Assembly (NCBI GenBank): GCA_016937155.1
Contig: JAFGWM010000030.1
Span: 1-41,608, forward strand
Length of the DNA stretch: 41,608 nucleotides
Reading direction: 5' to 3'
DNA from: Deltaproteobacteria bacterium
GTDB taxonomy: Bacteria; Myxococcota_A; Polyangia; HGW-17
In this document: positions 1-41,608 of the stretch, piece by piece
Position numbering within the stretch: position 1 is the stretch's first letter
Layout: every line of letters begins with the position of its first letter
Translations under genes and position numbers: made by a program
The notes under the pieces: model-generated
The model's database searches: none
What the model was told of the DNA's origin: nothing
The model's input: only the letters and a program-made list of their open reading frames with translations

Positions 1-496
1 CTGGGAGAAAAAAATTAACCTGGGAGAAAAAAATTAACCTGGGAGAAAAAAATTAACCTGGGAGAAAAAAATTAACCTGGGAGAAAAGAACAAACCTGGG
101 GGAAAAAATTAACCTAGGAGAAAAGAACAAACCTGGGAGAAAAGAACAAACCTTAGGAAAAAAATTAACCTGGGAGAAAAAATTAACCTGGGAGAAAAGA
201 ACAAACCTGGGAGAAAAAATTAACCTGGGAGAAAAGAACAAACCTGGGGGAAAAAATTAACCTGGGAGAACAGAACAAACCTGGGGAAAAAATTAACCTA
301 GAGGGGGAAAATTAACCTGGGGAAAAAAATTAACCTGGGAGAAAAGAACAAACCTGGGAGAAAAAATTAACCTAGAGGGGGAAAATTAACCTGGGGGAAA
401 AATTAACCTAGAGGGGGAAAATTAACCTGGGAGAAAAAATTAACCTGGGAGAAAAAATTAACCTAGGGGAAAAATTAACCTGGGAAGGGGAAATTA
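1..496. repeat. Degenerate minisatellite, 27 units of 17-19 bp
   Basis: Twenty-seven head-to-tail units can be laid out with no unique spacers, the first lacking its first base at the window edge. All begin CCT and most end ATTAA. Three classes are visible: A, CCTGGGAGAAAAAAATTAA and one- or two-base shorter forms; B, CCTGGGAGAAAAGAACAAA (units at 76, 113, 132, 187, 224, 261, 334); and C, CCTAGAGGGGGAAAATTAA (units at 297, 371, 407). A and B often alternate, making a 37-bp dimer (169-205, 206-242, 243-279). Unit length is not a multiple of three and the minus strand has a TAA in each A or C unit, so the array is not coding. The last degenerate unit (479-496) contains the stop codon of the peptidase gene. 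It continues beyond the left edge. Function unknown. Confidence 0.95.
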
Positions 497-2731
497 TTTT
501 ATATTTAGTTCGTTTAGCAACCTGGTTCCCTTAATGTGATTTTTCAGAAGGAAAAGAGCAAAGCGGATATCAAAACAGATACTTCTCTGATCTTTTCTAT
601 AGATGTAGTCACTAACGATGCTTTCAGGTGTTCCATCAAAAAGAAGACCGATGAGTTCTCCCTGTCCGTTTAAAACTGCACTTCCTGAATTCCCTCCTGT
701 AGTGTCCAGTTTTGTGGTGAAATTCAGAGGTATATCTTTTATATGTTTATCAAATAAAGGACTTTTCTCAAAAGACCGGGTACCAAGAGCTCTTATTGCC
801 GGGGAGAGATTAAATGGTTGTTTCCCTTTAAACTTCGCAATCATGCCCTTGAATGATGTTAGGTACTGATGCTTTTTGCCAGTTGAACTTTCAGTATAGT
901 TATCAACCAGACCGAAACTTAATCTCATGGTGAAATTCGCGTCATAATAAGATGGTTTTATAAAATTCATCACATAATTTTGTTTGAGCACCATGGGTAA
1001 TTTTTTAAAGAAATCAGAGTTCTTCTTTTTAAGTCGAATCATTTCTTCATCTATAATTATTCCCATTTCCACCAAGGGATCCTTTATTTTTCTCAATTTT
1101 CCCGATGGAAGATTAAAGTATTTCATTCGTGTGGAAAGAGTACGTTTCAATTCTCTCTCAAGTCTTGTCCATGAAAAAATTGCTGTTTTCGAAAACAGAA
1201 TATGAACCAGTTGTCTGATTTTATCATTTGTGAAGTCCTTAACAGTGCTGAATCTGTAGTAATCCTCAAATGTCATTGCACGGTTTTTCGCTTCTCTCTT
1301 CATTTCATTGATATATCTGATTCTAAGCTTTTCAAGAGATTTTAATACTGAATCATTTGGAAATTTTTTACCAAGTTCAACAAGGAGATAATAAATAATT
1401 TCAGATTCAACTTTCCTGCTGGACGTCAGATCTGTAGATTGTAAAACATTTTTTAGCCTGTACAGATTACGATCCTTAAAAAGGTCATCGGATCTGTCGA
1501 CAGACTTCATTTTTTTCAATCGATCCCATCTGGAAAGTATAAAACTGGTTTTTACTGAGGAAGTAATCCTTGAAAATAGAGAATAAATCAGAAACTGCTC
1601 ATACCATTTATCGGAATTTGTATAAATTGTATCCATTGAGGAAAGAATTGAATGAAGTTCCTTAATATTTTTTCCTGCATTTTTTTTCAAATTTTTTTCA
1701 AATGAAATTTTGGTTGAAATAAGGTTGATTTTTTTAAGGTTTTTGGTGAGATCACCATAATATTTAACTGCATTGTTCAGTCCTGCTTTAAGGCCTTCAT
1801 ATGGGCTTGTGTCAAGTTTACTGTTTTCAAGAATTTTTAATATCGAGCCATAATATTTGAGTCTGGCTGGAACAGCCCTGGATGTCATGAATGTAAGCTC
1901 TTTTGATGTACTGAATCGATCTGTTCTGCCGGGAAAACCAAGAACCATTGTGAATGAGTTCATAGAAATTCCTTTTTCAGAAATCTTTAAGAATTTCTCC
2001 GGTTTGTATGGAACATTTTTTATTGAGTAGTCGGTCGTTTTGCCATCTGGGGAAACCCATGCTCTTAAAAATGTGAAATCAGCAGTATGTCTGGGAAACC
2101 TCCAGTTATCAATATCTCCTCCGAATTTTCCCAGATTCAGTGATGGGGCATATACAAGTCTCACATCCTTGATATTTATATAAGTGGTCATAAAGAATTT
2201 ATGACCGTTCTGAAAGGAGTCAATTTCGCAGTAAAACTGCTTTTTTGTGCACTTATCAGCCAGAAGTTCAGTATTCTTTGCTATTATTTTGCTTTTTTCA
2301 CTAAGGGAACTTTTCTTTTTAATTCCTTTTGTGACCTGAGATGTGACATCGGTTATTTCACTCACCACTAAAAGATCATAGCCTGGACATGGAATTTCCA
2401 GTGTTTTGTCTTTTGCATAATAACCTTTTTTGAGTATACCACGGTGTTTCTTTGTAGCATTGAGTGTTGCAAGGCATCGGTATGCGACATGATGATTGGT
2501 GATCAAAAGCCCCTGCGGTGAGATGAAAGAGCCACTTCCGCCCCTCGCAACCTTTATAATTGCTTTTTTTAAATTATCTATTTTTGAAGGGTTCATTAAA
2601 AGGCCATCTTTTCTCATCCTCTGTGAGATATTTTTCGGGATTTCAGATGTAAGAAACATCCCTTCAGTTGAAAAAGTACCGGGTGAGTAGAGCATTATCA
2701 GTACAATAGTAGAAAAAAATGTGCGTTTCAT
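494..2731 (-). CDS. Exported S46-family dipeptidyl peptidase (DPP7/DPP11-like)
   Basis: Likely a periplasmic serine exopeptidase that removes N-terminal dipeptides from peptides. The 745 residues fit the family, which runs a little over 700. A signal peptide (about 1-22) is followed by a chymotrypsin-like fold: LITNHHVAY supplies the catalytic His (His81), the GGDIDNWRFPRHTADF block near residue 205 is the family's conserved Asp-containing segment, and TTGGNSGSAVLN supplies Ser682. The middle third is helical and Lys-rich, as in the helical cap of S46 enzymes. After the Ser, LLFDGTPES has Gly where, from memory, acidic-specific DPP11 has Arg, so DPP7-like preference for hydrophobic residues is the better guess. 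It is the last gene of a kinase-cyclase-peptidase operon: an AAAGGAA ribosome site overlaps the upstream stop codon, with a 16-bp gap. Its own stop codon lies inside the terminal unit of the repeat array. Confidence 0.9.
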   Translation of the reverse strand: MKRTFFSTIVLIMLYSPGTFSTEGMFLTSEIPKNISQRMRKDGLLMNPSKIDNLKKAIIKVARGGSGSFISPQGLLITNHHVAYRCLATLNATKKHRGILKKGYYAKDKTLEIPCPGYDLLVVSEITDVTSQVTKGIKKKSSLSEKSKIIAKNTELLADKCTKKQFYCEIDSFQNGHKFFMTTYINIKDVRLVYAPSLNLGKFGGDIDNWRFPRHTADFTFLRAWVSPDGKTTDYSIKNVPYKPEKFLKISEKGISMNSFTMVLGFPGRTDRFSTSKELTFMTSRAVPARLKYYGSILKILENSKLDTSPYEGLKAGLNNAVKYYGDLTKNLKKINLISTKISFEKNLKKNAGKNIKELHSILSSMDTIYTNSDKWYEQFLIYSLFSRITSSVKTSFILSRWDRLKKMKSVDRSDDLFKDRNLYRLKNVLQSTDLTSSRKVESEIIYYLLVELGKKFPNDSVLKSLEKLRIRYINEMKREAKNRAMTFEDYYRFSTVKDFTNDKIRQLVHILFSKTAIFSWTRLERELKRTLSTRMKYFNLPSGKLRKIKDPLVEMGIIIDEEMIRLKKKNSDFFKKLPMVLKQNYVMNFIKPSYYDANFTMRLSFGLVDNYTESSTGKKHQYLTSFKGMIAKFKGKQPFNLSPAIRALGTRSFEKSPLFDKHIKDIPLNFTTKLDTTGGNSGSAVLNGQGELIGLLFDGTPESIVSDYIYRKDQRSICFDIRFALFLLKNHIKGTRLLNELNIK

Positions 2732-2747: not shown

Positions 2748-4595
2748 TCATTGGCTATTCAGCAGGTAAACAGGATATGTGCCAAAGTCTTTTGCATATC
2801 TAACCTTTCCTGTATATCTGAAATTAAAATTATGTATACCCAGTGCTGCACAGATAGCAGCAAATCCTTCTGTAACATAAACTTTGCCTGGAGGAGTTAC
2901 AGGTTCAAGTCTGGCAGTATGAATAACATGGGCACCTGTATAGTTAACCATGCCAGTTACAGGGTTTATTAGACGGTGTACAGGTCCACAGTGTATTCCT
3001 ACCCGAAGTTGAAGTCTGTCAGGCAATCCCCACTTACTCCATGTGGTTTTTTCAACTGAACTTTGTAATTTAAGAGCAAAGTCACCTGCAGACCCAACAT
3101 TGTCAAATACTATATAGATGGAATCCCCCCAGGTATTTATCCATAAGGGGGAGGGAAAATCATTCAGGATATCCGAGATGTTTCCAAGAAAAATATTCAT
3201 AAAAACAGGAATCTGGTCTTCAGTCAGTTTGGAAAATCCGCTGGCATCAGCAAAAACCATTGATGCCAGTATCTGATGAGATTTGGAATTTGTTCTTATT
3301 GAAGTATTTTCAACCGGATCAGTGTTTATCTGATGAGTAATTATCTCACATCTATTATCAGGAAGTGATTTTTTTACGGCGTCCCAGGACTCCCTGATGG
3401 TTCTAACCAGAGACTGCTCAGTTTCAGATTCTGAATGAATAAGAAACAGAGTGAGATTGCCTCCTAACCTTATGGTTTTCATGAGTGCAAGCCCTGTGGT
3501 GTACTGGTATGTATAATCAAGAAGCGTAGGATTTGAAAGGTCATCACCAGCCATGGATGAAACAACATTATGATGATTTCTGAGCAGGCTGGTTAAATCC
3601 GTTGCAAAATCAGTATTTTTTTTACTTTGATGTTTAATAAAAATTTCCTTTGAACATGGCAAAACTGCAGTCACCTGAATTGAGCTCTTGTCTATAAGTT
3701 GCTGAAATGAATGTTCCAGTTGAGAAAATACAGTGGAAAAAGCAACAATCGGTTTCTTTTTATCCAGAAGATTCTTAATGGTGGTCAGGGTGTCTTCTGA
3801 CAAATGCTGTCCCGTAGTGGATGCAAAAACAAGAGTATTTCCCGCGGGAATTGCATTAGTGATGGCCACGCAACCAGGAAATACTCGTATGATTTCTCTA
3901 AGAAGCTGTCTTTCTTTTCTCAATTTTGCAGGGAAAAGTGAATTTTTTAATGTCCAGTTCTGATATTGATTCAGGCTTGAAACGGGATCAATTATTGCTC
4001 TCAGATGAATATCAGTTATTTCAGGCTCAGGTTGAGAATTGATGTATTCAAAAGGGGGACATGTTCCAGTGATAATGGAATTCATCAAAAGTATAAATGA
4101 ATTCAGTTCGCTGAATATATTATCTTTTTTTATATTCCTTAAAAAGGTGTTCAAAAGCTCAAGGTCATTGGGGGATGCGCTCATAAGCCATAGATCCCTC
4201 AGAAGTTTACCTGTATATAAATTTAAAATCGATGAGTCAGTTTCTTTTAAGTCATCTGCTATTTTCCGACATGATTTGATATCGCCTATACACAGGCAGG
4301 CTCCTGCCCAGCAGATACTGATTATTAAATCCAGAGTTGACAGCTTGGAATATCCTAATACCGGATCGTAAATTTCCAGATTTTCAGAACTGTTGTACCA
4401 GGGCCTCAGCCATTCCCACAGAATGAGTGGTTCATCCAGATTTATGCACAGCGAACTTATTTCCAGAATTAAAAAGGGATCAATGAGCCAGTCATCGAAA
4501 ACCGTGTTGTCAAAAAGGTCCTGAATATCAGTGACTGAGGGATAATTTCTCAGATTGTTTATGGATGCTTCCAGATCCTGTTGGCTGATTGCCAT
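2748..4595 (-). CDS. Class III nucleotide cyclase-like protein with altered active site
   Basis: A 615-residue soluble protein with no signal peptide or membrane segment. The C-terminal 170 residues are a cyclase homology domain: FADASGFS and WGDS carry the two metal-binding Asp residues, RVGIHCGPV is the usual central strand, and HVIHTARLEPVTPPG is the catalytic-loop region. Two expected residues are missing: the purine-contacting Lys before GD is Asn (INTWGD), and the catalytic Asn of VNxAxR is Ile, while the Arg remains. The protein may therefore be weak, altered or a ligand sensor. The first 430 residues are not recognised; they have two alpha/beta-looking stretches (about 240-300 and 340-420). 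It lies 6 bp after the kinase gene and 16 bp before the S46 peptidase gene, so the three are probably co-transcribed. The N-terminal part is the least certain. Confidence 0.75.
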   Translation of the reverse strand: MAISQQDLEASINNLRNYPSVTDIQDLFDNTVFDDWLIDPFLILEISSLCINLDEPLILWEWLRPWYNSSENLEIYDPVLGYSKLSTLDLIISICWAGACLCIGDIKSCRKIADDLKETDSSILNLYTGKLLRDLWLMSASPNDLELLNTFLRNIKKDNIFSELNSFILLMNSIITGTCPPFEYINSQPEPEITDIHLRAIIDPVSSLNQYQNWTLKNSLFPAKLRKERQLLREIIRVFPGCVAITNAIPAGNTLVFASTTGQHLSEDTLTTIKNLLDKKKPIVAFSTVFSQLEHSFQQLIDKSSIQVTAVLPCSKEIFIKHQSKKNTDFATDLTSLLRNHHNVVSSMAGDDLSNPTLLDYTYQYTTGLALMKTIRLGGNLTLFLIHSESETEQSLVRTIRESWDAVKKSLPDNRCEIITHQINTDPVENTSIRTNSKSHQILASMVFADASGFSKLTEDQIPVFMNIFLGNISDILNDFPSPLWINTWGDSIYIVFDNVGSAGDFALKLQSSVEKTTWSKWGLPDRLQLRVGIHCGPVHRLINPVTGMVNYTGAHVIHTARLEPVTPPGKVYVTEGFAAICAALGIHNFNFRYTGKVRYAKDFGTYPVYLLNSQ

Positions 4596-4601
4596 TTGAT
4601 A

Positions 4602-6527
4602 TTACCTGGAAAAAGTATGTGTAAAAGACTGATTTAAAAGAGAACTTTCAGGAAAACGAATTGCTCTGACAGTTGAACTGATACAACTGTCAAATTTACT
4701 GTTTCCCTTTACTCCAGACTGCATGAACGTTTTAATATTTCCATTACAGTTGATACTGAAACTTATCTTTAACCTGCCTGAAACACCATTTGAAGTAAAG
4801 CACTTCGATATTTGTACTGAACGCTTTTCGAGAATAGCACTGATCTTGGTTTTATCCACCGCACTGAGTCCCTTTTTACAGCAGCATTCATGGCTGTAAT
4901 TCTTCAGCATACACCATACCTTTGTACATTCTTCATTGGCTTTTTGTGTTTTATCGTTATTAACAGGCGCAACGACTTCTTTACCCACTGTGTTCATTGA
5001 GCCAACAGCCATTGTGTTAGGTTTTAATTCAGTTGGATTCTTTACAGTATTGTTTCCGCTATCTTTTACTCCAGCATCCTGAACAGTGGTCATACCATTG
5101 GGTTTGGAGATCGCTGTGTCTTTTTTCTTCTGGAGTTTTTCCAGAGAACTTTTCTCTGCCCCGGTATTTCCAACCTTCGGGAAATCTTCCTTTTGAAAAA
5201 AGAGCATCCATACTCCAAATCCTATTGCAAAAACCAGAATCACCAGAAGAATACCTGTAATAATTTTTTCAGAAGTGGAAGATTTTGACTCCTCCAGATA
5301 CTTTTCTGACTTCTCCTGTTCCAGTTTTGAATTTTTTTCTGCAATTTTTTTGAAGTAGTCCATCTGGGCTTCATGTGGGTCGTCTATTCTCACTGCTGGA
5401 AAGTTGCCCGTATGATCTTTTTTGGGTTCCAGTGAAATTTTTATAATATCCTGAATTGCCAGTTCGGGTGCAGGTTTCTTGCCTTCCTCAAGGTATTTCT
5501 GTCTATCCTGGCGAATCTGCTCACTGTATAGTTCCTCTTCTATTTCTCCGGAACCAGAATGAATGTTCCCATAGCTGGAGTCATACCCCATGTTGAGCTC
5601 ATACCATGGAACATCTGTGATATCTTCAGGTTCATCAAGTTGAGTCACTGCGTACATGGGATCCTGTGCAACCGCCTCCTGAAATTCATAAAAGAACTCC
5701 AGTGCTGACTGGTGTCTGTCTTCGGGTTTTTTCGACAGGCTTTTAGCCACAACTCTCGATATACCCTCAGGAATATCATCCCGGTGTGCACTGAGCGGCT
5801 GCGGTATATCGTTGACGAGTTTCATCAGAAGATCAGGGATGTTATTACCTGAAATAGGAAGTGTTCCTGAGAACATCTGGTAAACTATAACTCCAAGGCT
5901 GTATACATCCGAGGCTGTACCAATTTTGTCCACCTGTCCTCTGGCCTGTTCTGGGGCCATATAGGCAGGTGTCCCCATTACTGCTCCTGATTTTGTCTTC
6001 ATTGCTGTAGCCTGTTTTGATTCCATCAGTTTGGCTACACCAAAATCAAGAATTTTCGCCCTTAAGCCGGTTTTATCACGAAAAACCATAATGTTTTCAG
6101 GTTTTAAATCTCTGTGAATGACACCTTCATCATGGGCAGCACTGAGGCCACCAACGAGTTGAGTCAGGATCACTTCAACCTGACGCAGATCCAGTTGTCC
6201 TTTTAACTCTAAAACCGCACTGAGTTCTTTCCCCTGAACATATTCCATTGTGCAATAAAATCTATTGTCAGGAAGTTGTCCAAAATCAAATATCTCAATA
6301 ATATTAGGATGATTTATCCTATTAGCAGCCCTTGCTTCTTCAATGAAACGATGAATAATTGCTTCATCCTGACTGAAGGCATGATTGAGGATTTTGATTG
6401 CCACCTTTCGGCCAATAGTTGGATGCACGCATAGATAGACACTCCCATATGAACCAGTGCCCAGTTCTTTTTGTACAACGAAACTTCCTATCTGTTTCCC
6501 GATAATGGGATCTTCCTCAGATTGCAT
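4602..6527 (-). CDS. Transmembrane Ser/Thr kinase with AgmX/PglI-like periplasmic tail
   Basis: Hanks-type kinase, 641 residues. Kinase domain about 14-285: glycine loop GTGSYGSV, Lys45 (VAIK), HRDLKPEN with Asp140, DFG with Asp161 and GTPAYMAPEQ, so it should be active. An acidic and charged linker follows, then one membrane helix (about 421-444). The extracytoplasmic tail has a Thr/Asn/Lys-rich stretch and a final Cys-rich domain of about 95 residues (a CCC cluster, then KCF, CNG and SCI) resembling the TonB-like AgmX/PglI C-terminal domain of myxobacteria. The kinase faces the cytoplasm and the tail the periplasm, so the tail is probably the sensor or anchor. First gene of the operon. No Shine-Dalgarno sequence precedes the ATG, and a promoter-like pair lies so close that the mRNA may be leaderless. 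The tail assignment is by pattern only. Confidence 0.88.
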   Translation of the reverse strand: MQSEEDPIIGKQIGSFVVQKELGTGSYGSVYLCVHPTIGRKVAIKILNHAFSQDEAIIHRFIEEARAANRINHPNIIEIFDFGQLPDNRFYCTMEYVQGKELSAVLELKGQLDLRQVEVILTQLVGGLSAAHDEGVIHRDLKPENIMVFRDKTGLRAKILDFGVAKLMESKQATAMKTKSGAVMGTPAYMAPEQARGQVDKIGTASDVYSLGVIVYQMFSGTLPISGNNIPDLLMKLVNDIPQPLSAHRDDIPEGISRVVAKSLSKKPEDRHQSALEFFYEFQEAVAQDPMYAVTQLDEPEDITDVPWYELNMGYDSSYGNIHSGSGEIEEELYSEQIRQDRQKYLEEGKKPAPELAIQDIIKISLEPKKDHTGNFPAVRIDDPHEAQMDYFKKIAEKNSKLEQEKSEKYLEESKSSTSEKIITGILLVILVFAIGFGVWMLFFQKEDFPKVGNTGAEKSSLEKLQKKKDTAISKPNGMTTVQDAGVKDSGNNTVKNPTELKPNTMAVGSMNTVGKEVVAPVNNDKTQKANEECTKVWCMLKNYSHECCCKKGLSAVDKTKISAILEKRSVQISKCFTSNGVSGRLKISFSINCNGNIKTFMQSGVKGNSKFDSCISSTVRAIRFPESSLLNQSFTHTFSR

Positions 6528-41428: not shown

Positions 41429-41549
41429 ATTCTATCCTGCAGATTAAAAATTAACTCCAATTAATATAGGGCAATTGAAAGAACAATAGTTGCTGAAGAA
41501 ATAATAATCAAATGGTTTATTTTTCCGGGAAAACAATCGAATAAAAGGG

Positions 41550-41578
41550 GTGAAAAAGGGGGAATAGTTGCATATAAT
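41550..41578 (+). promoter_or_regulatory. Candidate promoter of the right-edge gene
   Basis: GTGAAA (41550-41555), 17-bp spacer, perfect TATAAT (41573-41578), then about 25 bases to the ATG at 41604. On the other strand TATATT (41463-41468) could serve the kinase gene starting at 41428. Confidence 0.45.
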
Positions 41579-41603
41579 GGTGGGCGTACAAAGGAGCAAA
41601 GAA

Positions 41604-41608
41604 ATGGA
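41604..41608 (+). CDS. Start of a gene cut by the window edge
   Basis: Only ATG plus two bases are visible. The case for a real start is the AAGGAG at 41591-41596, seven bases upstream, and a good promoter before it. The product cannot be told. It is divergent from the kinase gene, sharing a 175-bp upstream region. Confidence 0.6.

Follow-up and report, generated by a model that had tools for sequence, protein, structure and literature searches.

A minisatellite at the stop codon of an S46 peptidase gene shares its core with intergenic arrays and with the ends of multi-copy elements

We analyzed a window of 41,608 bp, which is the entire contig C74 of a draft genome of a Deltaproteobacteria bacterium (GCA_016937155.1; 85 contigs, 4.11 Mb) and which opens in a tandem array followed by three genes on the minus strand (Table 1). 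TRF reports a single array here, with a period of 19 (26.3 copies) or 37 (13.2 copies), and the same stretch can be split into 26 AACCT units spaced by 17 to 19 bp; these are tandem direct repeats in the range of about 10 to 60 bp that defines a minisatellite or VNTR. The array is purine-rich on the plus strand. Two unit types, AACCTGGGAGAAAAAATT and AACCTGGGAGAAAAGAACA, alternate over much of its length, and both are built around an invariant AACCT that is usually found as TAACCTGGG or AAACCTGGG. The units next to the contig edge are identical and 19 bp long, and they contain the longest exact repeat, which spans 68 bp and has copies at 1 and 20; toward the flank, units become degenerate. This heterogeneity argues against a pure assembly artefact, and a length change of the slippage type is plausible. 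No open frame spans the array, and we rejected its reading as a coding repeat on that ground. The initial annotation had described an array running from beyond the window edge to the neighboring gene: the array itself is borne out, and the edge is the end of the contig. The window being the whole contig, the array starts at base 1 because assembly broke inside it, and the measured length is therefore a lower bound. The right end of the window (41522-41608) is also a repeat: about 85 bp that adjoin a Ser/Thr kinase gene match the right end of contig C22.

Table 1. Features at the left end of the window
Feature	Position	Strand	Description	Basis
Minisatellite array	1..485	+	18/19-bp units AACCTGGGAGAAAAAATT and AACCTGGGAGAAAAGAACA, often 37-bp dimers	TRF, unit listing, column conservation
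Identical 19-bp units	1..76	+	contig edge, assembly stop point	sequence
Degenerate terminal unit	477..500	+	AACCTGGGAAGGGGAAATTATTTT	sequence vs contig ends
S46 peptidase gene	494..2731	-		Pfam Peptidase_S46, E 1e-141
Nucleotide-cyclase-domain gene	2748..4595	-	upstream of S46	Pfam PF00211; same order in G001
Ser/Thr protein kinase gene	4602..6527	-	upstream of S46	Pfam PF00069; same order in G001

The stop codon of the S46 gene, TAA at 496-494 on the minus strand, is the complement of a TTA at 494-496 that lies within the degenerate edge of the array (gggaaggggAAATTAtttt). The initial annotation was thus right that the array abuts this gene and supplies its stop, and right in the coordinates and geometry; the strand onto which the transcripts would run, called U-rich there, is C/U-rich. 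The predicted protein ends in LLNELNIK and is close in length to its relatives. Its best S46 matches in GTDB share only about 30% identity with it. In the congener G001 the C-terminal residues are slightly different (LLKEMNLTPAKI), a difference too small to claim that the array replaced an original stop. This congener keeps the kinase-cyclase-S46 order and, despite this conserved order, has no array after S46, where a nucleoside phosphorylase-like gene is found. Downstream of S46, G001 has a repeat-like intergenic stretch of another, GC-rich kind (GGGGGCATTGCCCCC...; L066:7960-8520), which suggests that the congener has repeat families of its own.

The closest other copy of the window array is found at the end of contig C52, on the same strand and 97% identical over 107 bp, where it begins 9 nt after the stop codon of a potassium-channel gene. 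C52 and C74 probably flank one array between convergent potassium-channel and S46 genes; the homogeneous interior of this array would be where assembly failed. Synteny does not confirm this junction, as none of the loci retrieved holds both genes and the congener differs after S46. With the same array type ending C52 and related arrays that share the core at many other contig ends, a short-unit array at a stop codon is not the isolated oddity that it had first appeared to be.

To place the array in the context of the genome, we carried out a repeat survey that covered about 1.79 of the 4.11 Mb, including 168 of the 170 contig ends; contig ends sample a genome with bias. Across the genome as a whole, a search for the core returned 151 copies of TAACCTGGG vs 6 for the reversed control, an enrichment of about 25-fold; the corresponding counts are 21 vs 11 in G001 and 29 vs 10 in a second relative, G002, and those of most other relatives stay close to control. 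Of the tandem arrays with a score of at least 100, 21 of 37 non-coding ones carry two or more cores vs 1 of 52 coding ones (Fisher p 1.7e-9). Units that differ widely in length and sequence have the core in common: about 16 contig ends hold a 45/46-bp array family (AACTAACCTGGGTGGGTTGAAAGAGAGGAGGGGAAAGAGGGAAAA), and arrays at C42, C18/C81, C53, C15, C13 and C43 have differing unit bodies around the same core. Alignment of units on anchors placed outside the core, which are conserved by construction, reveals no variation in AACCT across the window units and almost none in a stretch with CTAACC across 54 units of the 46-bp arrays, the other columns varying in both; outside the core the window unit differs from the 46-bp units. 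Core copies inside one array all lie on one strand. Relatives of the array were not found in plasmids, phages or the genomes of relatives, except for one 29-bp match inside a gene of the congener.

The survey also recovered repeats of other kinds. The core is present in coding-gene repeats at C22/C50 and C19/C84. A gene judged by eye to be FliK-like and flagellar, at C22:1-120 and C50:1-130 of this genome (G000; loci L004 and L005), carries coding repeats with AAAATTAACCTGGGAGA (KINLGE), nearly identical to the intergenic unit, and the contigs break there. At the start of contig C16 (1-317), a 33/34-bp array, ATGAGTTCCGGGGTTAGTTTTTGGGGTTAAGAA, contains the core-like GGGGTTAG and was excluded from the core-bearing count. 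The start of C8 and the end of C83 hold a CRISPR-like array whose repeat contains GTTTCAACTCCGTGCCGGTGGCACGGTCATTTAGGG. Putative fragments of IS630-type transposases, judged by eye at C5L, C6L, C27R, C28L, C56R and C62R, represent a second type of multi-copy element that breaks the assembly.

Many contig ends consist of the interior of a multi-copy element that runs into the core and then into unique DNA. Two such groups are of similar size. At about 15 contig ends, we find the C-terminus of a putative transposase (DHDVYFPPGTNQMYETHGVRISQLAIERLKMET) followed by a tail, or that downstream tail, ending in AAAAACTAACC(C/T)GGG; the C-terminal piece is also identified by ETHGVRISQLAIERLKMET. At seven others, the same element interior, with a possible start codon and an upstream AGGA, runs into the 46-bp array, which points outward, and about nine more ends hold the array only. 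Because the copy numbers are similar (about 16 and 15) and the reading direction fits, we infer that the array end and the transposase end probably belong to one element. In both of them the core points outward; no assembled copy joins them, and no complete element with both array and transposase is present among the contigs of this genome. Other repeat families (F1-F3) have the same end motif and no identified gene. The terminal unit of the window array looks by eye like the outer boundaries of dispersed elements, such as TAACCCAGGAGGGTTATTATTTT at the right end of C36. As candidates for the CCTAAC/GTTAG motif, integron attC sites and group II intron ends were set aside, since several families break the consensus.

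The N-terminal domain and middle of the transposase are absent from the assembly, and its motifs are read in relatives only. The 33-residue C-terminus has homologs of 338 and 317 residues in G001 and G002, respectively, that are 41-48% identical. These match the NCBIfam model NF047646, REP-associated tyrosine transposase (RAYT), with E values of 6.6e-12 and 1.3e-5 and scores of 45.5 and 25.1 bits, both below the cut-off of 80; no Pfam match was found at E 0.01. By eye, a candidate His-hydrophobic-His (HUH) motif reads NHYH in the G001 and G002 homologs and NHSH in a copy on contig C7 of this genome. A candidate motif on C7, YTMLNPVKAG, fully fits a tyrosine beside NP(L/V)(R/K)xG, and its counterparts YIAMNPVRAF (G001) and YIFMNPVKAL (G002) are without the final G; read in this way, full-length relatives in C7 and G001 show both NHxH and Y-x-x-x-N-P-V-(K/R). 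Both G001 rayt-like genes that were examined have a related motif, ATAACCCCGGACGGTT, in the first 250 nt or so downstream.

Placement of the core relative to genes is biased. With coding repeats set aside, 14 of 45 core-bearing contig ends have the core no more than 35 nt from a facing stop codon, vs 11.6% expected from random intergenic points (p 4e-4); the count is 11 of 45 (p 0.012) once three cases in which the stop lies inside the element end are removed. The core is equally close to a start codon at 1 of the 45 ends. No enrichment is found downstream of ordinary stop codons (3 of 457 internal stops vs 4 in the control). Ending at a stop codon is thus a recurring property of the core-bearing family and not unique to S46, and because so many core ends lie near a facing stop, the bias is better read as a preference of a mobile repeat family for such sites than as a function at S46. 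It may reflect targeting or selection against insertion elsewhere.

With moderate confidence, we read the window array as a solo member of a family of genome-specific intergenic minisatellites whose core recurs as the terminal motif of multi-copy elements, at least one of them with a RAYT-like transposase gene. The shared core may be summarized as an A-rich stretch followed by (C/T)TAACC(T/C)GGG, a motif that would also end the dispersed elements, and the transposase is proposed to be an IS200/IS605-related HUH/Y1 enzyme. In the pathway that we envisage, the core would be a terminal site recognized by the transposase machinery; ends would land in intergenic DNA, often at stop codons, where they do little harm, with the bias taken from the counts above and targeting a conjecture; and the terminal unit would then be tandemly duplicated by slippage or unequal recombination, possibly aided by single-strand cleavage, as the unit patterns suggest, leaving homogeneous interiors and degenerate edges. 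Transcripts of the S46 operon would enter a C/U-rich tail, predicted by folding to be unstructured and presumably passive for S46. Plain replication slippage from any seed would also yield such an array. More tentatively still, a RAYT-like HUH family may spread non-palindromic direct-repeat arrays, in place of palindromic REPs, by iterating its own terminal site, with a preference for stop codons and the element end supplying the stop. A genome in which many arrays of unrelated units share one core with RAYT-like ends would allow two poorly settled questions to be addressed in one system: the origin of bacterial minisatellites and the way in which RAYT transposases disperse their repeats. Core-bearing repeats also explain why the assembly of this genome breaks at these places.

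An ordinary minisatellite, produced by slippage from a chance purine-rich seed between convergent genes and linked to no mobile element, would account for the homogeneous units at the edge and the degenerate ones at the flank, a pattern typical of slippage or recombination. It would also fit the window contig, on which we see no element interior, and a unit body that differs from that of the 46-bp arrays. However, a single chance seed does not explain the roughly 25-fold excess of TAACCTGGG, nor a core held in common by arrays of unrelated units, 21 of the 37 non-coding ones, and by dispersed element ends, and we regard this origin as unlikely. The invariance of the core columns amid variable unit bodies, and the recurrence of the core in unrelated units and in the coding-gene repeats of C22/C50 and C19/C84, could instead reflect a selected host site for protein binding or recombination, serving chromosome organization, uptake or repair, that elements and minisatellites both carry or target. 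Such a site is harder to reconcile with a core that is strong in only one species, is not enriched near ordinary stop codons and occurs in arrays that cluster at contig ends with multi-copy elements, which makes it improbable.

The initial annotation had also proposed that the array may act as a 3' end, stabilizer or site of strand slippage for the S46 operon, and its position directly after the stop codon on the transcribed strand would suit such a switch. The minus-strand RNA of window 1-560 nevertheless folds worse than 100 of 100 shuffled sequences (z +5.2), the terminal DNA of the array folds no better than shuffles, no terminator-like site and no GC-rich hairpin with a T run, as expected of a Rho-independent terminator, was found in 1-560, and the array matches no Rfam family. 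We rejected a functional 3' end or stabilizer on the RNA fold, the terminator scan and Rfam, and, since G001 keeps the operon order yet has no array behind S46, we consider a regulatory switch of any of these kinds very improbable. Least credible of all are terminators, in which element-end hairpins (TAACCC-NNNN-GGGTTA, then T-rich) would end transcription and arrays would be degenerate terminator clusters: some element ends do fold as 6-bp hairpins and lie at stop codons, but the window array has no such hairpin, and a general host terminator motif was rejected as the core is not found enriched downstream of ordinary genes. Because its RNA is predicted to be unstructured, no terminator or Rfam family was found, and the core does not generally mark 3' ends in this organism, we take the array to be passive for S46, and probably the remains, or else the substrate, of a family of RAYT-like elements.

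Ordinary bacterial VNTRs resemble the window array in their tandem units, homogeneous stretch, degenerate edge and likely variability in length. A common core is not expected of ordinary VNTRs at separate loci, whereas 21 of 37 non-coding arrays here have one. Another close likeness is to RAYT/REP/BIME systems, in which intergenic, high-copy repeats are linked to an IS200/IS605-like transposase gene. In those systems, rayt genes are flanked by REPs, one third of them with BIMEs, REP abundance tracks rayt, and qualifying RAYTs were found in gammaproteobacteria only (PMC2817692). Like REPs and BIMEs, the arrays of this genome adjoin element ends, are confined to one lineage, and combine high copy number (151 vs 6) with an extragenic location (21 of 37 non-coding arrays). 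REPs, however, are palindromes that alternate in orientation within BIMEs, whereas the arrays described here consist of direct repeats; the window units lack palindromic symmetry and give RNA that folds worse than shuffles (z +5.2). The window array works like BIME/REP arrays, yet with units that are neither palindromic nor alternating it is not a REP or BIME. A literature search for IS200 together with minisatellites returned nothing. A similar outcome, short tandem direct repeats tied to small mobile elements, is seen in Porphyromonas gingivalis, where the BrickBuilt minisatellite inside a MITE, and MITE464/PgRS, have direct repeats of 23 or 41 nt and about 10 to 20 copies per genome, at least one of which retains nothing but the repeats; there, different repeats share similar terminal inverted repeats that flank the array and resemble those of P. 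gingivalis IS elements (PMC4596501). Unlike these P. gingivalis repeats, the arrays of this genome have a RAYT-like end motif, repeat their core in every unit and are placed preferentially at stop codons.
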